NCBI GenBank assembly: GCA_013178275.1
Contig: JABLWZ010000006.1
Coordinates: forward strand, 62,001 to 126,000
Reading direction: 5' to 3'
From: Bacillota bacterium
Lineage (GTDB): Bacteria; Bacillota; Ch66; Ch109
Length of the DNA stretch: 64,000 bases
Part shown: positions 1 to 59,591 of the stretch, piece by piece
How the letters are laid out: every line of letters begins with the position of its first letter
How positions within the stretch are numbered: position 1 is the first letter of the stretch
Program-made: the position numbers and the translations under genes
Notes under the pieces: generated by a model
The model's database searches: none
Told to the model about the DNA's origin: nothing
Seen by the model: the letters and a program-made list of their open reading frames with translations, nothing else

Positions 1-197
1 GATTTTTAGGCCCGCCTTCAAAGCTGAGTAGCCTGACTAGAATACTGCACCACCCACTATTATTGACTTTTTGCAAATTATATCACATCAGCGGCAAAAC
101 CTTCAAACTTCGTGCTGATTGTTTTACGACCGCGGATATCTTCCCGGGTTCTCTTTTTGCACCTGGTTCCCGCGGGATTCATCCATGCAGCATCTAG

Positions 198-1124
198 CTA
201 GTTCTTGCGCTCGATTACGTACCTGGCCAGGCTGCCGAGATACTCTCCCCTCGGCCCGAAACCAGCCAGGCTGTCGACCGCGCGGCGCGAATAACCGGCC
301 GCCCGCTTTTTGGCCTCCTCGATCCCCCACTGGGAAACGAAGGTGGACTTCTGGTTCCTCTGGTCGCTTCCCACGGGCTTTCCGATCACCGACTCGTCCC
401 CGATCACGTCGAGAATGTCGTCCATGATCTGAAAGGCCAGGCCGAAGTTTTCCGAGTAATCGGTCAGGCGGTCAAGCTGCTCAAGGTCGGCCCCCGAGAG
501 TATCGCCCCGGTCCTTATCGAGGCGCGGATCAGGGCCCCGGTTTTGTGCCGGTGCATGTAGTCCAGCGTCTGCGGGCCGATCTGCTTCCCCTCGGACTGG
601 ATGTCCACCACCTGCCCGCCGATCATGCCGTCCATCCCCGCCGCCTGCGCCACCTCCCGTATAACCCTGATAACCTCCAGGGCGGGCGGTCCCCCGGGAA
701 GGTCGCTGATGCGGGTAAGCACCTCGAAGGCGTACGTCAGCAGGGCGTCTCCCGCTAGGATCGCGATGGCCTCTCCGAACACCTTGTGCGAGGTGGGTAT
801 GCCCCGCCGGAAGTCGTCATTGTCCATCGCCGGCAGGTCGTCGTGGACCAGCGAATAGGTGTGGATGAATTCGATGGCCGCCGCGGCCGGCAGTACCAGC
901 CGGGGGTTTCCCCCAACCGCCTCCGCCGCCGCCAGTACCAATAGCGGCCGCAGCCTCTTGCCGCCCCCCATCACGCTGTACCTGACAGCCTGGTGGATGG
1001 CCGGGGGAAACCGGTCCTCCGGCGGCAGTGCTTCCTCCATCGCCTCGGTTATCAGCTTCTGATATTCCCGGGTCTTATCCAGGGAAAAGAAATCAGAGCA
1101 AGGTCTATCATCTGCTTCACTCAT
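198..1124 (-). CDS. ispA: Farnesyl/polyprenyl diphosphate synthase
   Basis: Class I trans-prenyltransferase, 308 aa, which condenses IPP with allylic diphosphates to make farnesyl or geranylgeranyl diphosphate in the cytosol. Visible motifs are GGGKRLRP near residue 53, the first Asp-rich motif DDLPAMD at 95-101 and the second DDILD at 235-239, both metal-diphosphate sites. Length is normal for bacterial IspA. The ATG at 1124 lies 3 bp after the xseB stop and is preceded by AAGGATAGG, so it is co-translated with the exonuclease VII genes, an arrangement common in Bacillota (xseA-xseB-ispA, often followed by dxs, which would lie beyond the window edge). Exact chain length cannot be told from sequence alone. 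Confidence 0.95.
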   Translation of the reverse strand: MSEADDRPCSDFFSLDKTREYQKLITEAMEEALPPEDRFPPAIHQAVRYSVMGGGKRLRPLLVLAAAEAVGGNPRLVLPAAAAIEFIHTYSLVHDDLPAMDNDDFRRGIPTSHKVFGEAIAILAGDALLTYAFEVLTRISDLPGGPPALEVIRVIREVAQAAGMDGMIGGQVVDIQSEGKQIGPQTLDYMHRHKTGALIRASIRTGAILSGADLEQLDRLTDYSENFGLAFQIMDDILDVIGDESVIGKPVGSDQRNQKSTFVSQWGIEEAKKRAAGYSRRAVDSLAGFGPRGEYLGSLARYVIERKN

Positions 1125-1127
1125 TTC

Positions 1128-1352
1128 CTATCCTTCGCCCCCCTGCGACGATCCCTCCGAATCCTGCTGCATCAGGATCTCCACCTGGTTTTCGGCCGCC
1201 TGCAGCTTCTGGCTGCATACCCGGACCAGGTTGATCCCCGACTGAAAACAGTTCAGCGCCTCTTCCAGGGTCAGATCCCCCTGTTCCAGCTGACGCACGA
1301 CCTCTTCCAGATTTTTCAGGGCTTCCTCAAAACTTATCTCCTTATCGACCAT
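1128..1352 (-). CDS. xseB: Exodeoxyribonuclease VII small subunit
   Basis: 74 aa from the ATG at 1352; it binds XseA to form the single-strand-specific exonuclease VII. The sequence shows the family core SFEEALKNLEEVVRQLE followed by GDLTLEEALNCFQSG, an alpha-helical hairpin. I chose the ATG at 1352, not the upstream TTG at 1370, because a GAGGGGG ribosome site lies 9 nt before it and the protein then starts MVDKEISFEEA like its relatives. The start overlaps the 3' end of xseA by 11 bp, implying translational coupling. The C-terminus is a short acidic/Gln-Ser tail. Confidence 0.93.
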   Translation of the reverse strand: MVDKEISFEEALKNLEEVVRQLEQGDLTLEEALNCFQSGINLVRVCSQKLQAAENQVEILMQQDSEGSSQGGEG

Positions 1353-2580
1353 CAAAGGATTCCCCCTCAATCTCCTTATAACTCTCCTCCACCTGACAGA
1401 GCAGCCGTCCCGATCCCAGCAGGACCTCGACTTCGTCGCCCGATGCGACCTGGCTGTATGAACTCACCAGCTTTCCCCCGGGGAGCAGCCGGCAGACCGA
1501 ATAACCGCGCGACAGCACCGCCAGCGGGCTCAGGGCGTTCAGGTGCGACGCCAGCGACGCCAGCCGCTCCCGGTCGTACCGGAGGATCCGGTTTATCGCG
1601 CTCCCCAGCTGGCCCGCGTTCTGTTCCAGGGCCTTTCTCCTCACCTCCAGGAAACCCCGGGGCGAGAGCAGCACCTGGCGGGAGGCGAGCTGGTTCAAGC
1701 GCTCCTTCATCCGTCTCAGCCGGATCTCCATCGAGGACTGCATCCTGGCTTCCAGGTTTTCGACCTTGCGCAGAAGCTCGGACATCACCGGCACCACCAG
1801 CTCGGCCGCGGCCGATGGGGTCGCCGCCCTCCGGTCCGCCACCAGGTCGGAGATGCTCACATCGGTCTCGTGCCCCACCGCGGAAACCACCGGGACACGG
1901 CTTTTACTGATGGCCCGGGCGACCTCCTCGGTGTTGAAGGCCCACAGTTCCTCCAGGGAGCCGCCGCCGCGTCCGACGATGATGACCTCCACCCCGGGGA
2001 CCCGGTTTAACCTCTCCAGTCCCGCCACTATCTCCGGCGGGGCCTGCGGCCCCTGGACCGTGGCCGGCGCGAGAACTACTCGGGTCGCGGGGCATCTCCG
2101 CTGGATGATGGTCCTGATGTCCTGGAACGCCGCGCCGGTGGGTGAGGTGACCACCCCCACCACCCTCGGGAAATAGGGCAGCGGCCGCTTCCTCTCGGCA
2201 TCGAACAACCCCTCCGCCTCCAGACGCTCCTTAAGCTGCTGGAAGGCGACCCAGAGCGAACCCAATCCGTCGGCGTACAGCTCGTCCAGGTAGAAGGTCA
2301 GTCCACCATCCCGCTCGAACACCGATACATATCCCTTGACCATCACCCGCAGCCCGTTCTGCGGCAGGAAACCCACCCGTGACAGGCGGGAGCGAAACAT
2401 AACACAGCGGATCGCCGTGCTGGTGTCCTTGAGGGTCAGGTACCAGTGACCCCCGGCTGGCCGGAAGTTGCTTATCTCGCCGCGCACCCAGAGGTTGCTG
2501 AGGACGTTGTCCCCCTCCAGCAGCCACTGGATGCGGCCTATGGCTTCTCCCACCGTCAATACCCTTGAAGGTGTGTTCAT
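1342..2580 (-). CDS. xseA: Exodeoxyribonuclease VII large subunit
   Basis: 412 aa catalytic subunit of exonuclease VII, which degrades single-stranded DNA during repair. It begins with an OB-fold nucleic-acid-binding domain (about residues 1-105, with VRGEISNFRPAGGHWYLTLKD) and continues into the exonuclease VII domain (SPTGAAFQDI, IVGRGGGSLEELWAFN, SAVGHETDVSISDLVADRRA), then a long helical C-terminal arm. The reading frame is open 104 codons further upstream, but that part is a shadow of folD. The ATG at 2580 gives the usual N-terminus (MNTPSRVLTVGEA) and lies 15 bp after the folD stop. Confidence 0.95.
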   Translation of the reverse strand: MNTPSRVLTVGEAIGRIQWLLEGDNVLSNLWVRGEISNFRPAGGHWYLTLKDTSTAIRCVMFRSRLSRVGFLPQNGLRVMVKGYVSVFERDGGLTFYLDELYADGLGSLWVAFQQLKERLEAEGLFDAERKRPLPYFPRVVGVVTSPTGAAFQDIRTIIQRRCPATRVVLAPATVQGPQAPPEIVAGLERLNRVPGVEVIIVGRGGGSLEELWAFNTEEVARAISKSRVPVVSAVGHETDVSISDLVADRRAATPSAAAELVVPVMSELLRKVENLEARMQSSMEIRLRRMKERLNQLASRQVLLSPRGFLEVRRKALEQNAGQLGSAINRILRYDRERLASLASHLNALSPLAVLSRGYSVCRLLPGGKLVSSYSQVASGDEVEVLLGSGRLLCQVEESYKEIEGESFDGR

Positions 2581-6458: not shown

Positions 6459-7820
6459 CTACTCCTCGGGCTGCTTGGCTGCCTGCTCTTTTTCCAGGCG
6501 CTTTTCGAAGAACGCCTTGGCCACCGCGGGGAACAGGGCGTACGAAAGCACATCTTCCTCTGAGCGGGCGAGGTCTCCGATCTCCTTCTTGGCCTCTTCC
6601 ATCCTGGGAGCGAGCATGTCGGCCGGCCGGCAGTCGATCTCCTTCAGCTTGCCCAGGATCTTCTTTTTGATGTCCTCGTCGATCTTTCCGGGCGCTAGTC
6701 CGTAGTAACCCTGGACGTATTTCTTCACTTCGTTGGGTACCATGCGGTAGCGTGCGCCGGACAGCACGTTCATCACCGCCTGGGTGCCAACGATCTGGCT
6801 GGTCGGGGTGACCAGCGGTGGGTAGCCGAGTTCCTCACGGACCTTCGGCACCTCGTCCAGAAACTCCTGCATGCGGTTTATCGCACCCTGTTCCTTCAAC
6901 TGCTCTACGAAGTTGGAGATCATTCCTCCCGGTATCTGGTGCTCGAATACCCGCATGTGGTTGATGCGGGTGACCCCGCGCTCGTGGCCCCGCCTGATCC
7001 TCACCTCTTCGAAGTAATCGGCGATTTCGAACAGGCGGTGCAGGTCCAGCCCGGTATCGCGCGGCCCTTCCTGCATCAGACGCACCAGGGTCTCCACCGG
7101 CGGCTGGGAGGTGCCGAAGGCAAGCGGCACCGAGGCGGTATCCACCACATCCGCCCCCGCTTCCGCGGACTTGAGGTAGGTGGCGATGGCCATGCCGCCG
7201 GTGTAATGGGTATGTACCTGAATCGGAATCGACAGCTGCTTCTTCAACTCTGAAACAAGATCAAAGGCGACATAGGGAGACAGCAGCCCGGCCATGTCCT
7301 TGATGCATATCGAGTCGGCTCCCATATCCTGGAGCTTCAAAGACATTTCCACATATTTTTCCAGGGTGTGCACCGGGCTCACGGTATAGGATACCGAGGC
7401 CTGTATGTGGGCGCCAGTAGATTTCGCGACCTGCATCGATTTTTGTAAGTTGCGGACATCGTTCAACGCGTCGAAGATGCGGAAGATGTCTATCCCGTTC
7501 TCCGCCGCCTTGATGACGAAGCGCTCCACCACATCGTCAGGGTAGTTGGCGTACCCTACCAGGTTCTGACCCCGCAGCAGCATCTGCAGCTTGGTGTTCT
7601 TTACGTGCTTTCTTATGGTGCGGAGCCTTTCCCACGGGTCTTCGTCAAGGAAACGGATGCATGTGTCGAAGGTGGCCCCGCCCCATACCTCCAGGGAGTG
7701 GTAGCCTACCTTGTCGACCTCTTCCAGGATCGGCAGCATGTCTTCCGTCATCATCCGGGTGGCCCACAGGCTCTGATGGCCATCCCTCATGGTTGTGTCG
7801 GTGATTTTTAGTTTTTCCAT
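6459..7820 (-). CDS. Oxaloacetate decarboxylase alpha / pyruvate carboxylase subunit B carboxyltransferase
   Basis: 453 aa TIM-barrel carboxyltransferase (HMGL-like plus PYC/OADA domain). Visible active-site elements are DTTMRDGHQS at 8-17 (metal Asp), the lysine in ICIKDMAG at about 174 expected to be carbamylated, and the metal ligands HTH at 203-205. A C-terminal biotinyl domain is absent: the protein ends after the helical PYC_OADA region in a short Glu/Gln/Lys tail, so a separate biotin carrier is needed. Candidates are pyruvate carboxylase subunit B, an oxaloacetate decarboxylase alpha chain of split type, or the 5S subunit of a transcarboxylase. It stands alone between asp23 and spoIIIAH with about 170 bp of non-coding DNA upstream. 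Confidence 0.88.
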   Translation of the reverse strand: MEKLKITDTTMRDGHQSLWATRMMTEDMLPILEEVDKVGYHSLEVWGGATFDTCIRFLDEDPWERLRTIRKHVKNTKLQMLLRGQNLVGYANYPDDVVERFVIKAAENGIDIFRIFDALNDVRNLQKSMQVAKSTGAHIQASVSYTVSPVHTLEKYVEMSLKLQDMGADSICIKDMAGLLSPYVAFDLVSELKKQLSIPIQVHTHYTGGMAIATYLKSAEAGADVVDTASVPLAFGTSQPPVETLVRLMQEGPRDTGLDLHRLFEIADYFEEVRIRRGHERGVTRINHMRVFEHQIPGGMISNFVEQLKEQGAINRMQEFLDEVPKVREELGYPPLVTPTSQIVGTQAVMNVLSGARYRMVPNEVKKYVQGYYGLAPGKIDEDIKKKILGKLKEIDCRPADMLAPRMEEAKKEIGDLARSEEDVLSYALFPAVAKAFFEKRLEKEQAAKQPEE

Positions 7821-7990: not shown

Positions 7991-8650
7991 CTATTTACGG
8001 CAAATAATCGATACCTGTTCCTCGTTGAACCCAAGCAGGCTGGAGGCCAGGCCGCTGACAGATTTTTTCTGCTCCGTTCCCAGCGGGCTGCTGAACAGGA
8101 CGACCGTGACCGATTCGGTCTGGATGAAGGCCGCCGCCTCGGGATATCCCTTGGCCACCATCAGGTTTTCCAGCTCCATCTCCTGCTCCATCTGGCGGGT
8201 CAGTTCCAGCATCCTCTTCTGCGCCTCACCCCGCGTCTCCGCCGAGGTCGACGGCGAGTTCACCATCTCCCGCAGGAGGTCTATCTGCTGAGAACGGACC
8301 CGGTCCCTCTCCAGCCGGAACTGGGCGAAGAACTGCTGGCTGTCCTGCTTGGCCTGCGAAGAGACGGCGGTGGTCGGTATCCCGGTTTTGGAAGCGCTGT
8401 CGGCAGCGGTCCGGCCGGGCGCAGTGCTCGCCGTCTTCTTCTCTGTACCGCCCTCGGTCTGGTTCGTCGGGGGAGCGGAAACAGCGGCTTGGCTTTCTGG
8501 AGGCGGGGAGGCATTCTCCATCTCCACCAAGGCCCGGTGGACCGCCCCGCCGTATATCCAGGCGAACAGCAGCAGCAGAGCGACACTGGTGATGAGCACC
8601 GCGTTTATAATCGTGCGTCGGTTCAATACCAGGGTATGCAATCTTATCAC
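7991..8650 (-). CDS. spoIIIAH: Stage III sporulation protein AH
   Basis: 219 aa mother-cell protein whose extracytoplasmic domain pairs with forespore SpoIIQ across the intermembrane space, building the feeding-tube/secretion channel of engulfed forespores. There is one N-terminal transmembrane helix (about 14-34), a long low-complexity Ser/Thr/Pro linker, and a C-terminal YscJ/FliF-like ring-building domain (FRLERDRVRSQQIDLLREM, then the helix-strand region to the end). It is the last gene of the spoIIIA operon and overlaps spoIIIAG by 4 bp. Confidence 0.9.
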   Translation of the reverse strand: MIRLHTLVLNRRTIINAVLITSVALLLLFAWIYGGAVHRALVEMENASPPPESQAAVSAPPTNQTEGGTEKKTASTAPGRTAADSASKTGIPTTAVSSQAKQDSQQFFAQFRLERDRVRSQQIDLLREMVNSPSTSAETRGEAQKRMLELTRQMEQEMELENLMVAKGYPEAAAFIQTESVTVVLFSSPLGTEQKKSVSGLASSLLGFNEEQVSIICRK

Positions 8651-9270
8651 CTGCCTTCTATCGTTCTCGGCATCACCTTTATCCGGTAGGATGGTATACT
8701 GAGCGAGGTCTGCAGCGCCATGGTTATCTCCTCTCTCACCCGCGCGTCGCTGGCTCCCTCGCAGACCACCAGCACTCCCTTGATCTCTGGGGCCACCTCC
8801 CGCACCACCAGGGGGGAACTCGACGACTGGCTGGAGGCCGGCAGCAGCACCGTCTGGTGATCCTGGTTTTTCTCGGTGGTTACCCGGGTGCCGCCTTTTT
8901 CATCCTTTTCGTTTATCTCCCGCTGGTCCTGCTTTTCGTTCACCGCGTACTCCTGCTGGGGACTGGAGGCGAGGGTGATCGATACCTCGACCCGGCCCAC
9001 CCCGGCGATCTTTTCGAGCACTGTTTTCACCCGCGACTCCAGGATCGACTCCTCCTGGGTCAGGTCCGACTGTCCCGGTTTTTCTTTCCCGTTCTGGGCC
9101 GCGGAACTGTCCGCGATTGCCGTTACCCGCGTTAAATCCCCGTCCCCGCCGTCCGCCTGGTTCAGCAGTGAGCCGCCGATCATCAGCAGCACCCCCAGCG
9201 CGGCCACCACCAGCATCCCTCTTGCCCAGGCGGCGGGAGGGATCTTCATCTCCAGCTTCACCTTCCTCAC
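8647..9270 (-). CDS. spoIIIAG: Stage III sporulation protein AG
   Basis: 207 aa. One transmembrane segment near residues 17-37, a charged linker, and a C-terminal ring-building motif domain (ILESRVKTVLEKIAGVGRVEV, then VLVVCEGASDARVREEI, both partial). SpoIIIAG forms a large ring in the mother-cell outer forespore membrane channel. Ends 4 bp inside spoIIIAH. Confidence 0.9.
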   Translation of the reverse strand: MRKVKLEMKIPPAAWARGMLVVAALGVLLMIGGSLLNQADGGDGDLTRVTAIADSSAAQNGKEKPGQSDLTQEESILESRVKTVLEKIAGVGRVEVSITLASSPQQEYAVNEKQDQREINEKDEKGGTRVTTEKNQDHQTVLLPASSQSSSSPLVVREVAPEIKGVLVVCEGASDARVREEITMALQTSLSIPSYRIKVMPRTIEGR

Positions 9271-9283
9271 CCCTTCCTTATCT

Positions 9284-9934
9284 TTAAACCACCTCGACCT
9301 GGATCCTTTCCTTCGGCAGGCCGTAGAAGTTGCTGACCGTTTCCTTGACCCGCTGCGTCATCTCCACCGCGCCGGTATCGATGCCTGCCCCCGAGTCTGC
9401 GGGTTTTCCATCGGTGGAGATCTCGACGCGGGGTATCGGTTTTACCAAGGCCTTTGACCCGTCGGTCCCGGTGCCCGGCTGGCTTCCATAAGCGTCCTGG
9501 CTTTTGTCGCGGGTAACCCTGACCTCCACCTGGCTGATCGCGTCCAGTGAATAGAAACTCGCTCCTTCGCGGAGGTACACCTTGGCCTCTACCCGCTCCA
9601 CCCCGGGTACCAGCTGCAGCATCGACTCGATCTGTCTCGCCAGGTGTTTCTGGTAGGACGAGGAAACGCCGCCTCCCGGCTGCGTGCCGGTCCCCGGGGA
9701 CATCACCGTGGTCGCGGCCTGGCTGTCGGAGGACTGGAGCTTCCAGGATGATAATCCCCAGTTCTCGTCTTTTACCCAGTAGGATATCGGGCCCAGCAGG
9801 GTGACGATGACGAACAGCCCCAACACCAGCTTGACGAACCTCTTCAACTGGTTGTCGGGCAGCAGCATCTCGAACAGCCCGGCCATCAGCACGATTACGG
9901 TTATCTCCCGTATCAGCTGCCGAAGCACCTCCAT
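9284..9934 (-). CDS. spoIIIAF: Stage III sporulation protein AF
   Basis: 216 aa. Two N-terminal transmembrane helices (about 9-24 and 35-50, VIVLMAGLFEMLLP then LVLGLFVIVTLLG), followed by an extracytoplasmic domain with a ring-building-like fold at the C-terminus (VSNFYGLPKERIQVEVV). The spacing of 13 bp to spoIIIAG and 14 bp to spoIIIAE fits the operon. A longer overlapping reading frame on the same strand (9267-9944) is a frame shadow. Confidence 0.88.
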   Translation of the reverse strand: MEVLRQLIREITVIVLMAGLFEMLLPDNQLKRFVKLVLGLFVIVTLLGPISYWVKDENWGLSSWKLQSSDSQAATTVMSPGTGTQPGGGVSSSYQKHLARQIESMLQLVPGVERVEAKVYLREGASFYSLDAISQVEVRVTRDKSQDAYGSQPGTGTDGSKALVKPIPRVEISTDGKPADSGAGIDTGAVEMTQRVKETVSNFYGLPKERIQVEVV

Positions 9935-13609: not shown

Positions 13610-15466
13610 TCAGCGCTCATCAATCAGGTCAGTCTGGTTCGCTGGCAGTTCGAGCCTGAAATACTCTATACCGCTGTCCACCGCCTTGATCCCGACCGCG
13701 GATATCCCCGGTGCCGGGTCAATGAGGTCTTCCCGCTTCAGCGAACCGGCTTCTAACCGCCGGGCGATCTCTATCACGTCGTACTCGAAAAACTCGACCA
13801 GCAGCCGCTTGTTTATCTCCCGGGCGGACATCCCCCGCCACTCGGGGAAGTGCTTCTCCATATTGCGCTCGTCCTTCAGAATCTGGTGCGACAGCTGTTT
13901 CTGGCCGGGGAACCGGGTGCGGGGGAACCAGTCCGGCAGGTGGGGCATGCCCGGCTGCGTCAGCCAGTCCAGCTTCAGCATCTCGGTAAAGATATTCTTA
14001 ATCGGGGAACGCAGCCGGTGTTTGGCGAAATCCAGCAGTATCCGGTAGGTGGACGTCCCGCTCTGGGTCAGACGATAGATGCCTTTTTCTTCCCAGTAAT
14101 CCGCCATCGCCTCGTAGAGTCCCATGGCGTCGTCCGCCCACAGCTCCAAAATCCCCAGGGAAAAGGTGAAGCGCCCGGGGTTGTGGTACTTCTCGACCAG
14201 GTCCTCGATCAGCCGCAGCCTCAGGATGTCGCTGAAGCTGAGTTCGCGGCTTTCCAGGAGCTCGTAGGGCGGCTGCGGGGAGAACCGGTACCCGTACTGC
14301 CCGGCTGACTCCCTTAACCCCGAACCCTTCAGGAGCTTCAGGAAACCGAGCTGCAGGCGGTGCGGCCGCAGCCGGTAGACGTCGTCGAAGGATACCCGAA
14401 ACCTCTGGTAGGGCTCGAAGGGCAGGCCGGCGATCAGGTCGAGGTGGAGGTGGATGTTGTCCCACCCTCTCAGGGCGGCGACGTTTTCCCTCAGGCGGTC
14501 CCAGTCCATACTCCGGGATATGGCCTCCTGGGTGGCGGGATGGGTCGACTGGACCCCGATCTCGAACTCGAAATACCCCGGGGGCACCCGCTTCAGCAGT
14601 TCGAGGTTCCTTCGGATCAAACGGTCGGCCCCTATCTCGAAGTGGAAGAGCGCCTTCCGCCAGGATTCCTCTTTTTCGTACTGCTGCAAAAGGTATTCCC
14701 ATATCGCCTGAGCCCGTTCGGGGCTGGAGTTGAAGGTGCGGTCGACGAACTTCACCTGGGTGGCCCCGTTCGCTATCAGTGCTTCCAGGTCCGCCTCGAC
14801 CCTTTCCAGGGGAAAGTACCGCACCCCCGGCTGTACGGAAGACAGGCAGTAGCGGCAGCGGTTGAAGCACCCGCGTGACCCCTCCAGGTAGACCGTGCGG
14901 TTCACGAGTTCGCCCCAGTCCCCTGTCCTCACGCCGTCCCCCTGGTAAGGGGATACCACTTCATCCAGGTTGTCAATCAGCGGCCGGGGAGGGGTCGATA
15001 CTATCACCCGCTCGCCCCGGAACACCAGCCCGGGGACATGATCGAGGCGGTCCAGTTTATCTCCTTCACTCATAGAGCGCACCAGTTCGTAGAAGGTCTC
15101 CTCGCCCTCACCCACGACTACGGCGTCGAGGCCGGGGTTTTGCTCCAGCAGCTCTATGCTGTCGAAGGATACCTCCGGCCCGCCCAGCACGATCACCACC
15201 CCCGGCAGCACCTGCTTCAGCTTGGCGCACAGGGCCAGGGTGGGCTCCAGGTTCCAGATGTATACAGAGAATCCGACCAGGTCGGGCTTCATCCGGTAGA
15301 TTTCACCCAGGACATAGTCCACCCTCTCGTTGATGCTGTACTCGGCCATCATGATCTGTAAACCCTGGATCGCGTGTGCTGCCGCCCGCAGCCGGCTCCT
15401 GAGGTAGCGGAGCGCCAGCGACGAGTGGCTGAAGCGGGCATTCAGGGTAGTGAGTACGACCCGCAC
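13610..15466 (-). CDS. B12-binding radical SAM protein with C-terminal DUF4080
   Basis: 618 aa. An N-terminal cobalamin-binding Rossmann domain (about 1-140, GFSVYIWNLEP and VLGGPEVSFD) is followed by a radical SAM barrel whose 4Fe-4S motif is GCFNRCRYC (CxxxCxxC, about residue 200) and which continues through FEIGVQSTHP and the DLIAGLP block. The C-terminal half resembles DUF4080. This architecture is common in Clostridia as a stand-alone gene with no known substrate; possible roles include methylation or rearrangement of a tRNA, lipid or peptide. It is followed by a tandem terminator. Confidence 0.88.
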   Translation of the reverse strand: MRVVLTTLNARFSHSSLALRYLRSRLRAAAHAIQGLQIMMAEYSINERVDYVLGEIYRMKPDLVGFSVYIWNLEPTLALCAKLKQVLPGVVIVLGGPEVSFDSIELLEQNPGLDAVVVGEGEETFYELVRSMSEGDKLDRLDHVPGLVFRGERVIVSTPPRPLIDNLDEVVSPYQGDGVRTGDWGELVNRTVYLEGSRGCFNRCRYCLSSVQPGVRYFPLERVEADLEALIANGATQVKFVDRTFNSSPERAQAIWEYLLQQYEKEESWRKALFHFEIGADRLIRRNLELLKRVPPGYFEFEIGVQSTHPATQEAISRSMDWDRLRENVAALRGWDNIHLHLDLIAGLPFEPYQRFRVSFDDVYRLRPHRLQLGFLKLLKGSGLRESAGQYGYRFSPQPPYELLESRELSFSDILRLRLIEDLVEKYHNPGRFTFSLGILELWADDAMGLYEAMADYWEEKGIYRLTQSGTSTYRILLDFAKHRLRSPIKNIFTEMLKLDWLTQPGMPHLPDWFPRTRFPGQKQLSHQILKDERNMEKHFPEWRGMSAREINKRLLVEFFEYDVIEIARRLEAGSLKREDLIDPAPGISAVGIKAVDSGIEYFRLELPANQTDLIDER

Positions 15467-15495
15467 GGTATCACCCCATCGGAAACCGGAATATT

Positions 15496-15534
15496 CCCCG
15501 TCCCGGGCGGTCTGAAGCCGACGCCGAGACGGGG
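15496..15534 (-). other. GC-rich inverted repeat between two genes
   Basis: CCCCGTC and GACGGGG pair at 15496-15502 and 15528-15534, with further GC-rich pairing inside. It lies in the 90-bp gap between the CD1247-type gene and the radical SAM gene. There is no U-run, so it is a possible processing or pausing structure and not a clear terminator. Confidence 0.35.
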
Positions 15535-15556
15535 ATGCTGCTTTAAAAAATCTGCT

Positions 15557-15997
15557 TTATATGTCCTGGGTTACCTGGTGGTCGGGCACCCCGGTTTCGT
15601 GCCCTATGATCGAGTGCTGAAAATCGAATGAGCCGTCGTTGACATACACTATCTCTTCACAGTTGGGGCAGGTTACCTCGACAATATCATCGTCATCCAT
15701 TACGTCGGCGGAGAAACACACCACGTCGTGACAGCGCGGGCAGGTGACCTCGATCTCATCTTCTTCATCGCTCACGTCGATGTCTCCGCCCTCCAGGAGG
15801 CTGATCTCCTCGTCTATGGACTCTGTGAAGTCCTCCAGTCTCTGGTGCTCCAGCCACAGTGTGTCCAGGCTGTCGACCACCTCGCCCAGTACCTCGATGA
15901 TGCTGTTGATGACCCGGCCTTCCTTACTCTGGTCCCTGACCTCCAGGCCTTCGGTCAGTCCCTGCAGGTATGACACCCGCTCTTTGAGAATCCGCAT
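15557..15997 (-). CDS. CD1247 N-terminal-domain protein with zinc-ribbon
   Basis: About 146 aa from the ATG at 15997, which follows AGAGGGGGTT; an in-frame start at 16024 or 16030 is also possible. The N-terminal half (MRILKERVSYLQGLTEGL then helices to about residue 70) matches the CD1247 N-terminal domain found in clostridial proteins. An acidic linker leads to two CxxC pairs (CPRCHD and CPNCEE), likely one zinc ribbon. Function unknown; a regulatory or RNA/protein-binding role is only a guess. Located between efp and the radical SAM gene. Confidence 0.75.
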   Translation of the reverse strand: MRILKERVSYLQGLTEGLEVRDQSKEGRVINSIIEVLGEVVDSLDTLWLEHQRLEDFTESIDEEISLLEGGDIDVSDEEDEIEVTCPRCHDVVCFSADVMDDDDIVEVTCPNCEEIVYVNDGSFDFQHSIIGHETGVPDHQVTQDI

Positions 15998-16086
15998 CTT
16001 GATAATAACCCCCTCTTTCTCCATGCTCACGGAGCCTATCAGGGGTATTATTCCACCACAGCGGTTCCTTATACTGGCAGCTGATG

Positions 16087-16644
16087 CTATGCCCTCTCCA
16101 TGTAAGTTTCGGAACGGGTGTCGACGCGTATCTTGTCCCCTATGTTGATGAAGAAAGGAACGTTCACCACCGCTCCGGTCTCCAGCTTGGCCGGCTTGCC
16201 GCCGCCCGACGCCGTGTCGCCGCGGATGCCGGGGTCGGTCTCGACCACCACCAGCTCAACGAAGCTTGGAGGCTCGACCCCGATCACGCTGCCCTGGAAG
16301 GTCATGACCATCATGTTCATGTCGTCTTTCATCCACTTGATGCCTGACCCTATCTGATCGCGAGTGAGGGTTAGCTGTTCGTAGTTCTCGGTGTCCATGA
16401 ACACGAATCCGTCGCCCTCGCTGTAGAGGTACTGCATCTGCCTCCGCTCGACCCTGCCTCGGGGGACCTTCTCTCCCGCCCGGAATGTACGCTCCACCAC
16501 GGCACCGGTGCGGACGTTTTTAAGCTTGGACCGAACAAAGGCAGAACCCTTGCCCGGCTTGACGTGCATGAACTCCACGACCGCCCAAACGTCCCCCTCC
16601 AGTTCGATGGTCAACCCAGTTCTAAAATCGTTGACAGAGATCAA
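16087..16644 (-). CDS. efp: Translation elongation factor P
   Basis: 185 aa. EF-P binds between the P and E sites of stalled ribosomes and relieves polyproline stalling. Three beta-barrel domains are recognisable; the modification loop [10 protein letters not shown] (Lys at about 32-34) and the C-terminal signature [17 protein letters not shown] are present. It sits downstream of papP, the usual efp-papP-aroQ arrangement of Bacillota. Confidence 0.97.
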
Positions 16645-26959: not shown

Positions 26960-27328
26960 CTAGTGTTTGTTGTTGTCGAATGACAGTTCTTTAAGCAGTT
27001 TCTGGATCGCCCGCTTCTCGATCCGGCTGACGTAGCTCCTGGATATGCCCAGCATCTTGGCGATTTCCCGCTGGGTCTTGCACAGCCCGTGAAAAAGGCC
27101 GAACCTCATCTCCAGAACGTTCCTCTCCCGTCCGCTCAGCTTCTTGACCTTCTCCTTTATCTTCGCCTCTTCGAGCTGCGCCTCGACCATATCCTGGACT
27201 ACTTCCGCCGGGGTCCCCAAAACGTCGAGCAGGGTTATCTCGTTGCCTTCTTTGTCTGTACCTATCGGGTCGTACAGCGATACCTCTCCCCGATTCTTTT
27301 TTACCACCCGCAGGTGCATCAACACTTC
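26960..27328 (-). CDS. sigK: sigK 3' half (sigma-K regions 3-4)
   Basis: This frame encodes the C-terminal 122 residues of the late mother-cell sigma factor SigK: the end of region 2/3 (LMHLR, DPIGTDKEGNEITLLD) and region 4 with the -35-binding helix-turn-helix (TQREIAKMLGISRSYVSRIEKRA). It has no ribosome site or proper start of its own; an internal GTG at 27325 is only the codon after the recombination point. The missing N-terminal part lies 1.8 kb away at 29128-29472. Joining GAA (27326-27328) to the same codon at 29128-29130 yields CIENE-VLMHLR, the expected SigK sequence, 236 aa in total (B. subtilis mature gene encodes 241). Confidence 0.95.
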   Translation of the reverse strand, partial: EVLMHLRVVKKNRGEVSLYDPIGTDKEGNEITLLDVLGTPAEVVQDMVEAQLEEAKIKEKVKKLSGRERNVLEMRFGLFHGLCKTQREIAKMLGISRSYVSRIEKRAIQKLLKELSFDNNKH

Positions 27329-27370
27329 GAGGGCTGAGTCTTTTCCCGGCGGGAAACCTTTACAAACGCC

Positions 27371-28828
27371 TCATACCTCGTCTTCTGAGAGCCGAATGTA
27401 GATCACCGCCTCGATATCGACCTCCCCTTTTTTGACCCGTCTTACCTCTACCTTCTTTACCAGGGATCTTAATACCGCTCGCTTATCTATGAACTCCATC
27501 TCATCCAGTCCCGCCAGGATGGAGCCAGCCGCATCGTGCGAGCTGTGCATAAGACCTTTTATTTCAGCCTCATTCGCGTAATGCACCGCCTCCTGCAATC
27601 GTTTTTCTAGGCTTGCTTTTTGCTCCTTTATCGTTAAAAGCCGTTCCTGTGCTTTTTCGCTTAAATCCAGCAGCCCCGCTGAAAGTGCGTCTAATACCGA
27701 TTCCTGCCTTTTTTCCAGTTCTCTGATCTTTTTTCCCAGGTTTTCAATCTCCCCCGCTGCCCCCTCGTTATCCCGGATCGTGCTTTTTATCTCGGTTGAG
27801 AGCTGGTCTGCATCATTCACAGCGTTTTTTACTATGTCCCACACCGCTTTCTCCAGTGCCGCCGCCGGCAGTAAGTTCCTGGGGCGGCAACCAGAGCTTT
27901 TGGTATCGGCTCGGTTCTTATAACAGGTGTATCTCCTCTCCTTTTTGCCCCACCAGTTGACCAGCATCCCGTTTAAGCTTGAGCCGCAGTCCCCGCAGAC
28001 AGCTATCCCCGACAGCAGGTATCCCGCTCCTAATTTCCCAGCCCACATGCGACGGGACTCCGCCAACTTTTTCTGGGCCTTCTCCCAGGTGTCTTTATCC
28101 ACCAAAACTGGAACCGTTATCTCAATCCCTTGGTAGCTCCAACCGCCTTTATAGACCGGGTTGGAGAGCAGCTGTCTTATCACCTGGCGATGCCAGGTTC
28201 TCCCCCGGCGGGAGAACTCGCCTCTTTCATTCAATCGGCGGGCTATCCCGTTACACCCCAGGTCTTCAATCACGAACCATTCGAATATATCCGCGACCAG
28301 TTTTGACTCATCGGGGTGGAGCAGCAGTTTCCCCGAATCGCTCTGGTAACAATACCCGTAAGCGTTGAAGCCGGTGGGGATGCCTCCCTGACGAGCTTTC
28401 TGCAACCTGCCCCTCGACATCCTCTCCCGAATCTTCTCCTTCTCATACTCGGCGATCGCCCCTCGGATAGCGTAAAAAAGCCGACCGTCAGGGGTGTCCT
28501 GCCAGTCGAAGTCCAAAAAATGCATCTCCACCCCAAAACGTTCCAGCTCGTCAGTCAGCAGCAGTTGATGCGACAGGCGCCGGGAAAGCCGATCCGGGTC
28601 ACGGACGACCAGAAAGGCCACTGGCTCCCTACTTATTAAATCCCGCAACTGGTTGAGTCCCGGGCGGTCCAATACGGATCCGGAGACACCCTCGTCGGTG
28701 AATACGACAACCTCATGGGCCCCGAGTTCACGGGCGCGCGCCTCGCATGACTCCCGCTGCTCATTCAGGGAATATCCCTTTCGGGCCTGTTCCTCGGTGC
28801 TTACCCTGATATATACAGCCGCCTTCAT
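27371..28828 (-). CDS. Large serine recombinase, SpoIVCA-like skin excisionase
   Basis: 485 aa site-specific recombinase. Resolvase catalytic domain (1-145) with nucleophile Ser10 in VYIRVSTEEQARKG and the DRLSRR block; a Recombinase domain (about 155-260, containing GIARRLNERGEFSRRG and WHRQVIRQLLSNPVYKG); a zinc ribbon (CGDCG then C-x-Cys pairs, about 280-320); and a C-terminal coiled coil (about 345-440). This is the size and order of B. subtilis SpoIVCA. It is codirectional with sigK, ends 42 bp from the left attachment core and starts in an ATGA overlap with the small ORF upstream. By position it should excise the element to restore sigK. Confidence 0.93.
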   Translation of the reverse strand: MKAAVYIRVSTEEQARKGYSLNEQRESCEARARELGAHEVVVFTDEGVSGSVLDRPGLNQLRDLISREPVAFLVVRDPDRLSRRLSHQLLLTDELERFGVEMHFLDFDWQDTPDGRLFYAIRGAIAEYEKEKIRERMSRGRLQKARQGGIPTGFNAYGYCYQSDSGKLLLHPDESKLVADIFEWFVIEDLGCNGIARRLNERGEFSRRGRTWHRQVIRQLLSNPVYKGGWSYQGIEITVPVLVDKDTWEKAQKKLAESRRMWAGKLGAGYLLSGIAVCGDCGSSLNGMLVNWWGKKERRYTCYKNRADTKSSGCRPRNLLPAAALEKAVWDIVKNAVNDADQLSTEIKSTIRDNEGAAGEIENLGKKIRELEKRQESVLDALSAGLLDLSEKAQERLLTIKEQKASLEKRLQEAVHYANEAEIKGLMHSSHDAAGSILAGLDEMEFIDKRAVLRSLVKKVEVRRVKKGEVDIEAVIYIRLSEDEV

Positions 28829-28962
28829 GTTCTTTTTATGTTTGCTATCGCCAACCTCGCCAGGTATTTATAAGCATTCTTTCTTCCATCACCGCCGCAT
28901 TTTATAATCCTCACCTTTATCCTAGCCCCTGAAACTGTACCGGTACGATTAGCTTCCGACAT
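28825..28962 (-). CDS. 45-residue ORF translationally coupled to the recombinase
   Basis: ATG at 28962 follows a very strong purine-rich site (AAAGGGGGGG). The frame runs 45 codons and its TGA overlaps the recombinase ATG as ATGA. The product begins MSEANRTG and ends in a basic segment (YKYLARLAIANIKRT). I do not recognise a family. The position and coupling suggest a partner of the recombinase, for example a recombination directionality factor, or a leader peptide that ensures recombinase translation. The region -35/-10 of this unit is unclear; AGGACA and TATATA, 18 nt apart just upstream, are a weak candidate. Confidence 0.6.
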   Translation of the reverse strand: MSEANRTGTVSGARIKVRIIKCGGDGRKNAYKYLARLAIANIKRT

Positions 28963-29097
28963 GCCCCCACCCCCCCTTTATATACCTACACCAGAATAAT
29001 TTTGTCCTATTACTCATGGCGAGTGTTACCAGGGATAGGGTTTTCCCGAAATAAAAAAAGCCTTTATGGCCGTGCGTGAAATCAGAACCAGATTATT

Positions 29098-29472
29098 CTA
29101 TATGATACCGGGATTAGTCTTTCGCTTTTCATTCTCTATGCACCGCGCGGCATAGGTTGCCAGCTTGGTGCCTTTCTCCGGCTTATAGGTATTGATCGCC
29201 TTGATCAAGCCGATGGTCCCGATCGAGATAAGGTCGTCGAGGTCTTCACCGGTGCCGTCAAATTTTTTCAGGATATGTGCAACCAGCCTGAGATTGTGTT
29301 CTATCAGCCGGTTTCGGGCCTCCTCATCTCCCTCCTTAAACCTCATGACATAGAGATACTCATCCTTTTCAGAAAGCGGCTGCGGGAAGGTGTGATTGCT
29401 GATGTAACCCGCAAAAAGCAAAAACCCTGGAAGCCATTTGAGTGCGCACGGTACCAACAACTCCAGGACCAC
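29098..29472 (-). CDS. sigK: sigK 5' half (pro-sequence and sigma region 2)
   Basis: Starting at GTG 29472 (AAGGAGG seven nt upstream at 29480-29486), this encodes the SigK pro-sequence and region 2: [19 protein letters not shown], then [16 protein letters not shown], the [18 protein letters not shown] core and [11 protein letters not shown]. In B. subtilis the N-terminal roughly 20 residues are cut by SpoIVFB after forespore signalling; a comparable hydrophobic stretch is present here. After CIENE at 29128 the reading frame enters the skin element and stops ten codons later, so unexcised DNA yields a truncated, inactive protein of about 125 aa. Confidence 0.95.
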
Positions 29473-29629
29473 GCGGTTTCCTCCTTCCAAGAGCAAGAGT
29501 CGCCCTACATCATATGGGATATACAAGGCAATTGGTGCTTGTTCAAATTAAAAATTCTCTTTTTTGACTTTCCCGCCTTTCAGATACCGTATATCTCAAC
29601 TTTACCTTCCGCTGCCCCAACTGGTCAAT
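29362..29629. repeat. sigK leader repeat, copy A (duplicate at 31174-31435)
   Basis: About 265 bp covering the sigK upstream region and first 38 codons recurs in the same orientation at 31174-31435. The coding part and ribosome site are nearly identical; the region upstream of the ribosome site has diverged, although the stretch CATATGATGTAGGGCGACTCTTG-type spacing just before the ribosome site (29487-29516) is conserved and may hold the promoter's 3' part. Confidence 0.8.
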
Positions 29630-31049: not shown

Positions 31050-31161
31050 ATTGTATTTATATCCTCAAAGCTTTATTGTGGTTTCAGCCTTGATTATTAT
31101 ACTTCTATAAAGCTTCCGGAGATGAAGAAGTTCGACAGGTCTTTTGCGTAATACACATCAC

Positions 31162-31284
31162 CTAAATATGCTTATCCTTTTCAGAAAGCGGCGGCGGGAA
31201 GGTGTGATTACTGATATAACCCGCAAAAAGTAAAAACCCTGGAAGCCATTTGATTGCGCACGGTACCAACAACTCCAGGACCAC
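31162..31284 (-). pseudogene. Truncated duplicate of the sigK 5' end
   Basis: A GTG at 31284 behind AAGGAGG opens a 40-codon frame nearly identical to the SigK pro-sequence ([11 protein letters not shown], then PPLSEKDKHI and TAG). Only three or four residues differ from the real SigK N-terminus, and the stop falls exactly where the similarity ends. The ribosome site and leader are kept (31285-31320). It is either a decaying duplicate or a free pro-peptide gene. Confidence 0.75.
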
Positions 31285-31509
31285 GCGTGTCCTCCTTCCA
31301 AGAGCAAGAGTCGCCCTACATCATATGGGGGAGGTGGGGAATCGGGTGCTTGTCGCGTTGAGAAACGCTTTTTTCTTTTTCGGCGCCTCAGGTGGTACAG
31401 TTCAATTTTACCTTCTCCCGGCGCGGATGGTCAATGTGGGATGCCAAACACCTTTGCATTGCGTAATGAATATGATAATCCATAATTTACTATTCAAGGA
31501 TGTGATAGG

Positions 31510-44396: not shown

Positions 44397-44486
44397 AAAA
44401 CTCCTTTCGGTAGCTGGCTGCCATTTTACAGGCCCTTTAGCTTTGCGTCCCAGCCTTTCGACTGGTTTGCCATTGTCGCTTGAGTT
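44397..44486 (-). promoter_or_regulatory. c-di-GMP-I riboswitch 1 (start-proximal)
   Basis: GEMM-I aptamer on the minus strand: GGCAAACC, CGAAAGGCTGGGACGCAAAGC, GGGCCT, then TGGCAGCCAGCTACCGAAAGG. The tetraloop/receptor and the guanine-recognition core are intact. Its 5' AACTC can pair with 3' GAGTT, and the 3' strand (AAGGAG) is the ribosome binding site of the lyase gene, so ligand binding should hide it (OFF switch, inferred). Confidence 0.93.
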
Positions 44487-44545
44487 GTCTTATCAGGCTT
44501 CTGTTTTCACAGATCGACTTGAACGATACCCGAGCATAAAACAAT

Positions 44546-44634
44546 AACCCCTTTCGGTAGCTGGCTGCCATTTCACAGGCCCTTTAGCTTTGCGTCCCAG
44601 CCTTTCGACTGGTTTGCCGTTGTCGTTTGAGTTT
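44546..44634 (-). promoter_or_regulatory. c-di-GMP-I riboswitch 2 (middle)
   Basis: Second GEMM-I aptamer, nearly identical to its neighbours in the conserved core (GGCAAACC, GGGACGCAAAGC, GGCAGCCAGCTACCG). The 3' strand here is AAAGGGGTT, pairing with AACTC with one G-U. Separated from aptamer 1 by about 60 nt. Confidence 0.93.
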
Positions 44635-44695
44635 TAATCAAACCTCTTATTCAGTTGTCTTTATAGTTTATTGCGATGCTTCTTATTCAATAATA

Positions 44696-44785
44696 AAAAC
44701 CCCTTTCGGTAGCTGGCTGCCATTTTACAGGCCCTTTAGCTTTGCGTCCCAGCCTTTCGACTGGTTTGCCGTTGTCGCTTGAGTT
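44696..44785 (-). promoter_or_regulatory. c-di-GMP-I riboswitch 3 (promoter-proximal)
   Basis: Third GEMM-I aptamer with the same core and P1-like pairing (AACTC/GGGTT), followed on the minus strand by GTTTTTATTATT. It begins about 20 nt after the predicted transcription start. The T-run could act as part of an expression platform, but I see no clear competing terminator stem. Confidence 0.92.
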
Positions 44786-59325: not shown

Positions 59326-59591
59326 CTTTCCCCCCTGGTACACTTGGCTTTTATCATTTTACTACTGCATTCGACATTTGTCCATGACATTTAAGACCTA
59401 TATAACGACCTGATAATTCAATACTTTATTTACATTTGAAATTCTATTTTCGGTAACCCGGGCTCCGCCCCATAATATGGCTTTATTGCCGAATCCTTCC
59501 AGTTTTTTGATTATTTTTCTAGGCAGGAGTTTCTCACCGTTCTGTGGAATATTAGTGCTTAAATACTACGAAAAGGAGCGATTGTCAGAAT

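Follow-up and report, generated by a model that had tools for sequence, protein, structure and literature searches.

The stretch of DNA analyzed here (the window; 64,000 nucleotides) carries sigK in two pieces on the minus strand, with 1,802 bp between two copies of one Glu codon (Table 1). Past this codon, the ORF of the 5' half runs through nine foreign codons to a stop ending at 29098. When the insert was removed precisely in silico, an in-frame sigK of 236 aa was obtained, which scored 354.6 bits with the SigK model TIGR02846 (curated cut-off, 298.65 bits), more than the intact SigK of a relative, G002 (341.3 bits). The original prediction had placed the sigK halves at these coordinates, 1,802 bp apart, with a common Glu codon through which joining would restore a 236-aa SigK, and had seen in the insert one serine recombinase gene and one 45-codon ORF; ORF, profile, and domain analyses bore out all of this. 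It had also turned on whether an intact second sigK exists elsewhere in the genome. None was found in the 4.77-Mb, 55-contig assembly (G000, with the window in contig C52; listed contamination, 6.39%), where the sole other full-length SigK-like match was SigE (C4:110794-111423; 413 bits with the SigE model TIGR02835, cut-off 348.6). With the empty site in frame and no second sigK found, the description of the insert as reduced to what looks like excision machinery held as well. The assembly also contains a SpoIIID gene, scoring above its cut-off, and the organism is apparently a spore former.

Table 1. Features at and near the split sigK gene (positions in the window)
Feature	Position	Strand	Details
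sigK 3' half	26960..27328	-	Shared Glu codon 27328-27326 to stop ending at 26960; TIGR02846, 164.7 bits
attR	27303..27352	-	Element left arm, central GA 27328-27327, sigK right arm; symmetry 6/24
Large serine recombinase, 485 aa	27371..28828	- (same as sigK)	PF00239, PF07508, PF13408
45-codon ORF, candidate recombination directionality factor (RDF)	28825..28962	-	Family profile; pI 11.0
Weak promoter-like box upstream of small ORF, TAGGACAA-N11-TGTA	28980..29011	-	Relatives' spacing; 8.5 bits
Terminator-like GGCCATAAAGGC plus T run, between sigK 5' half and small ORF	29052..29071	-	By eye
attL	29105..29154	-	sigK left arm, central GA 29130-29129, element right arm; 24-nt arms; symmetry 5/24
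sigK 5' half	29128..29472	-	GTG 29472 to shared Glu codon 29130-29128; TIGR02846, 171 bits
Diverged direct copy of sigK promoter and first codons (29337-29629)	31149..31435	-	Outside the switch itself

Between the end of the recombinase gene and the Glu codon of the sigK 3' half at which crossover is placed lie 42 bp. Its product matched the PHROG 95 integrase with 352 bits, and Tyr6, Arg8, Ser10, Asp79, Arg80, and Arg83 were invariant in 19 of 19 aligned sequences; we take Ser10, Arg8, Asp79, Arg80, and Arg83 to be catalytic residues. With its three expected domains and these kept residues, the recombinase appears to be intact. Among solved proteins, the relative that scored best by sequence was the SPbeta integrase YokA (E = 1.1e-29), which we take to be SprA, just as we take YotN to be SprB. 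The YokA structures are of the protein alone and with YotN (PDB 9dxh, 9dxd), and this pair, unlike the window cassette, comes from a full prophage, in spsM. A phage origin of the recombinase clade was considered and rejected, the best identity being about 34% in the phage, plasmid, and viral-contig collections. No close relative of the window recombinase was found among phages (best match, 33.7%, Alicyclobacillus phage MMB025, which has been reported as integrated in sigK), plasmids (34.0%), or viral contigs (18 loci; best, 34%). An IS607-type or IStron element was likewise rejected, as the IS607 model gave 25.6 bits against a cut-off of 110 and a second long ORF was absent from the recombinase strand. 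No phage structural or replication genes were encountered in the cassette; of its two ORFs, only the recombinase had PHROG matches, and 1.8 kb leaves no room for a further phage gene.

Split sigK genes were surveyed in 398 genomes sampled evenly from the phylum; a SigK/SigE-type match was present in 342. Picking by best E-value and number of matches, which misses genomes holding both an intact and a split sigK, gave 28 candidates, with the halves on the same contig and strand (19), on different contigs (5), on opposite strands (2), or ambiguous (2; G143 and G163). The gap was below 3 kb in 9 of the 19 that could be measured, i.e., those with both halves on one contig and strand. A scan of genome contigs from 84,980 species (genome_contigs) with 12 sigK-adjacent recombinases yielded 50 loci, of which 29 contained a sigK half and 21 did not. 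Because the split falls at the same codon position in relatives, it is not due to chance. In a recombinase tree of 56 rows, the window sequence fell in a clade whose support (86/95) was below the mark set by the tool itself. Of the 31 rows in this clade, 30 adjoin a sigK half; at the exception (L092), the contig ends 119 bp past the gene. The window sequence, on a long branch (0.96), has no settled position inside the clade.

Measured from Glu codon to Glu codon, six relatives (L103, L104, L105, L106, L109, and L127) have elements of 1,778 to 1,796 bp, close to the 1,802 bp of the window; two others measure 2,106 bp (L107) and 2,286 bp (L110), and nine range from 2.7 to 14.8 kb, one 14.8-kb element carrying conjugation-type genes (TraG/TraD-like and Replic_Relax). 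Some small sigK elements use recombinases outside the window's clade (L073 and L074 by the tree; L075 by its low score). The six relatives of 1.78 to 1.80 kb form a supported clade that excludes the window. Among them is Syntrophaceticus schinkii Sp3 (L105), whose element measures 1,796 bp and whose genome has one SigE-range match and two SigK halves; the excerpted text of the S. schinkii genome paper describes terminal endospores and one SigK gene and has no mention of a split (PMC4642661). L105 and its kin share with the window the recombinase clade, the core position, and the upstream small ORF, but their cassette runs against sigK, with the recombinase end abutting the 5' half, whereas the window cassette runs with sigK. 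Since the window lies outside the clade of these six and its cassette has the opposite direction, independent reduction or independent arrival is likely rather than proved. A single cassette orientation throughout was rejected, as the label "same strand as sigK" needs nine changes on the 56-row tree, at least five of them forced by supported branches. No match above the SigK cut-off was found in 14 of 15 genomes checked. An intact SigK accompanies the split one in G409 (L112), G407 and G408 have an extra full-length match below the SigK cut-off (234 and 239 bits), G410 has a partial one (222.7), and G404 has a second SigE-range match. A DUF2225 protein is encoded in two sigK elements of different lineages and opposite cassette orientation (L072, 3466-4437, 3.7 kb; L112, 6258-7604, 3.3 kb). 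Two genomes have the sigK halves on a single contig in facing orientation: in G169 (L078), the 5' half is at 882-1376 (+) and the 3' half at 7181-7570 (-), and in G302 (L079, L080), the halves lie on opposite strands about 377 kb apart. With halves so placed, att recombination would invert the intervening DNA and excise nothing; either sigK is rebuilt there by inversion, or the arrangement is an artefact of assembly or rearrangement.

Large serine recombinases act on attP and attB sites that are symmetric, and the resulting attL and attR sites are not. In the window, attP and attB were each an imperfect palindrome about GA, matching at 12 of 24 arm positions (shuffle P = 0.00075 and 0.0043, respectively), and neither attL (5/24) nor attR (6/24) was symmetric. 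Since this is how the sites of large serine recombinases behave, GA in the Glu codon is the most probable crossover dinucleotide. The crossover of the B. subtilis skin element presumably falls at about the same codon (AATGA repeat). Pairing of att sites was tried at 26 loci and succeeded at 21 (L114, L074, L075, L078, and G127 were left out). In the window, the cassette recombinase sits between matching att sites. Over 13 offsets at the 21 loci, mean arm matches for attP were 14.4 of 24 at GA versus 4.9 to 7.9 elsewhere, and those for attB were 10.1 versus 5.0 to 7.2. Within offsets of -5 to +5, GA was the sole best attP center at 18 of the 21 loci (L107 and L079 tied, and L112 peaked at +3) and the sole best attB center at 14. 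Symmetry of attP is also stated for large serine recombinase sites in PMC5595907 (in excerpt). By eye, the crossover seems to lie a few bases further upstream at L075, at L078, and at L083/L084 of G127, which have more distant recombinases; the attP arms of L078 form a clear palindrome, also by eye. The half-palindrome of attB, TGCAT...ATGCA, falls within the sigK codons for Cys-Ile and Met-His, and this may explain why sigK has been targeted repeatedly.

The stop of the 45-codon ORF overlaps the recombinase start by 4 nt, as ATGA. A profile built from 23 small ORFs of relatives, trimmed at the recombinase start and with the window excluded, ranked it first of the 1,360 window ORFs of at least 25 codons (E = 4.9e-5; next, 0.18). 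By this search, it matches a small-protein family whose genes directly precede those of large serine recombinases residing in sigK. For 24 of the 34 recombinases examined, the small ORF begins before the recombinase gene and extends 28 nt into it; elsewhere it has another end point, and at L032 (G001) there is none. Start codons of the small ORFs in relatives are uncertain. Of the genome_contigs loci, 29 lie beside a sigK half, and the profile matched at 27 of these, 21 of which had contributed to it and 6 of which had not; the two without a match were L114 and L089, the latter being the G001 contig again. In eight close pairs of relatives, dN was below dS in the ORF frame in all eight, and also in frame +1 in six, so that this comparison supports the ORF weakly. 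The pI exceeded 7.5 in 17 of 18 family members (L104, 5.6). The 45-codon ORF had no significant match in Pfam or PHROG, and the profile had no similarity to any solved chain; an AlphaFold model of the 45 aa gave two strands and a helix at modest confidence (pLDDT, 69; pTM, 0.36). In G001, the nearest relative and a member of the same family, sigK is likewise split and the recombinase shares 48% identity with that of the window, yet no such small ORF lies upstream; a CheW-domain ORF occupies that position. Its element, seen in part, with the ORFs at contig ends (L031, 2-664; L032, 4234-4473), seems to carry the CheW-domain ORF and a 221-aa ORF without a Pfam match. Elsewhere, recombinases at L115, L117, L120, and L125 have an upstream small-ORF match (E = 6e-8 to 0.0016) and no sigK half in the locus, and L100 has two recombinase copies (8001-9542 and 15003-16544), each with an upstream small ORF, before one sigK 3' half.

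The best guess for the 45-codon ORF is a role as RDF, because it has the same position as Skr in B. subtilis; the analogy is one of position and not of sequence, and the absence of such an ORF in G001 counts against it. The B. subtilis skin element, like that of the window, lies in sigK. It has a small RDF gene directly upstream of and overlapping the recombinase gene, where the window has the candidate RDF gene, and its excision restores sigK, as that of the window cassette would; its order, attL-skr-spoIVCA-attR, is that of the window cassette, the small gene preceding the recombinase (PMC6957869, in excerpt). Skr is encoded by a 64-aa ORF immediately upstream of spoIVCA that overlaps it by 101 nt (PMC6957869, same excerpt), against 45 aa and 4 nt in the window, and the two systems are likened by position, not by SpoIVCA or Skr sequence. 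The B. subtilis element is prophage-like and spans 48 kb, whereas that of the window spans 1.8 kb and has no phage gene. The C. difficile element (CD1231/CD1234) also has a large serine recombinase and a small RDF in sigK, with the recombinase gene beside the sigK 3' half as in the window; it differs in having 19 genes and in its RDF, which is acidic (72 aa, pI 5.5) and is encoded by a gene that, by locus number, is not adjacent to that of the recombinase (PMC5025042, in excerpt). According to the same excerpt, that element is inserted at a site other than that of the B. subtilis element, and serine recombinase RDFs do not resemble one another significantly (PMC5025042).

The original prediction had generalized that known skin elements are decayed prophages. 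This was not supported, since two published elements are non-phage and 9 of the 19 measurable sigK elements were smaller than 3 kb, small elements thus recurring in the phylum. The two are gin, a 28.6-kb element in gerE of B. cereus (PMC5595907, in excerpt), and sigK island IV of B. cereus bv. anthracis, 22 kb and phage-free (PMC10745906, in excerpt), both excised in sporulation. Like the window cassette, they are free of phage genes; unlike it, they carry cargo. As far as the excerpted sources go, published sigK elements measure 22, 39, 48, or about 57 kb, are a 105-kb prophage, or comprise 19 genes, and an 11-kb remnant in kamA represents an element in another sporulation gene. No report of a sigK element of about 1.8 kb was found in searches of open-licence PubMed Central papers. 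Predicted to work as skin does, the window element has the testable defining features of a sigK-intervening element and differs in having the recombination unit only. The kind of element was already known; new here are the small-ORF family link, the probable GA crossover, the recombinase clade beside sigK, and the recurrence of small elements.

An exact match to WWRRACARNY, which we take to be the SpoIIID consensus, lies 37 to 60 nt before the small ORF in 15 of 23 relatives (mostly TAGGACAATC), and most have CGTA or a near form at a fixed spacing from this SpoIIID-like site. The window has TAGGACAAAA at the relatives' spacing, one base off WWRRACARNY, and no exact site before the small ORF; its promoter-like box (8.5 bits) ranked 4th of 127,938 positions. 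Exact WWRRACARNY matches lie upstream of the window sigK at -74 and -198, among 38 in the 64-kb window. Mother-cell control of the cassette, through sigmaE and SpoIIID, is plausible. The window's best match to the relatives' promoter-like box (17.2 bits) is at 59591 (-), far from sigK.

Together, these results point, with a probability of roughly 0.85, to a minimal, phage-free skin (sigK-intervening) element, attL-rdf-int-attR, that would excise in sporulation. In growing cells, sigK would be broken by the cassette. In sporulating cells, the recombinase would be produced together with the small protein encoded upstream, most likely in the mother cell. The small protein would serve as the directionality factor, and the recombinase would link the two sites, attL and attR, at GA in the Glu codon; the cassette of 1,802 bp would then exit as a circle, restoring the in-frame gene for a 236-aa SigK, and the forespore would retain the split copy. 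Against this reading stand the weak promoter box of the window, the lack of the small ORF in G001, the small ORF's want of family or structural matches and its model of modest confidence, the codon comparison that failed to separate the two frames, and the long window branch. Excision, its timing and cell type, the co-transcription, and the RDF role are all predictions from the DNA sequence, on which a programmed rearrangement controlling late sporulation is likely.

Were the lineage one that no longer sporulates, the element could be a dead insertion with both sigK halves decaying, and the diverged sigK 5'-end duplicate nearby does attest to local rearrangement. Yet both halves are open, the joined protein outscores the intact SigK of a relative, the recombinase has retained its residues and the att sites their symmetry, the assembly contains SigE and SpoIIID, and the arrangement recurs, including in an isolate recorded as an endospore former; we therefore regard decay as improbable. 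A mobile element that merely targets sigK, and whose excision is not under developmental control, appears marginally less probable again. SigK is needed for spores in B. subtilis and C. difficile, and if it is so needed here, failure of the element to excise would abolish sporulation. Moreover, all but one of the 31 clade rows are at sigK, and the exact SpoIIID-like site precedes the small ORF in 15 of 23 relatives. Such targeting would nevertheless accord with the imperfect palindrome of the sigK site itself (attB, 12/24), with the several distantly related recombinases that target it, with the TraG/TraD-like and Replic_Relax genes of the 14.8-kb relative, and with the weakness of the window promoter box. 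That the two halves function as a split protein with no DNA rearrangement, for which an in-frame GTG in the 3' half offers a possible translation start, is very improbable, given the foreign codons that close the 5' half and an att anatomy, built on a shared codon, for which this reading has no explanation.

Beyond the reading of the window cassette as a minimal excising skin element, a broader proposal can be made tentatively and at somewhat less than even odds. The cassette could be a domesticated, self-sufficient developmental switch, the DNA counterpart of a self-splicing intron, consisting of attL-rdf-int-attR alone, and not a decaying prophage. Such switches might have arisen several times at one palindromic sigK codon site, in both orientations and through recombinases of distant kinship, and might persist because mother-cell genes cannot be expressed prematurely while sigK is broken. 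If the cassette works as inferred, it would be near the smallest natural unit able to rebuild a gene in sporulation, and phage cargo would be dispensable. The old question of whether skin is a tolerated parasite or a host timer thereby becomes testable, as a two-gene cassette and the small elements of cultured species (S. schinkii) allow simple removal and timing tests. The analysis also provides a candidate RDF family recognizable by sequence.

Other features of the window lie outside the cassette. The copy of the sigK 5' end is 90% identical over 139 nt, 98% over 43 nt, and 71% over 41 nt, at a spacing of 1,806 to 1,812. This repeat flanks a LytR-type gene, and its outer copy (31149-31435) is a truncated fragment. 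At the window's edge (1-69, minus strand) is the cut-off end of an OLE RNA, barely above threshold, and three c-di-GMP-I riboswitch aptamers lie in series at 44405-44779 on the minus strand.
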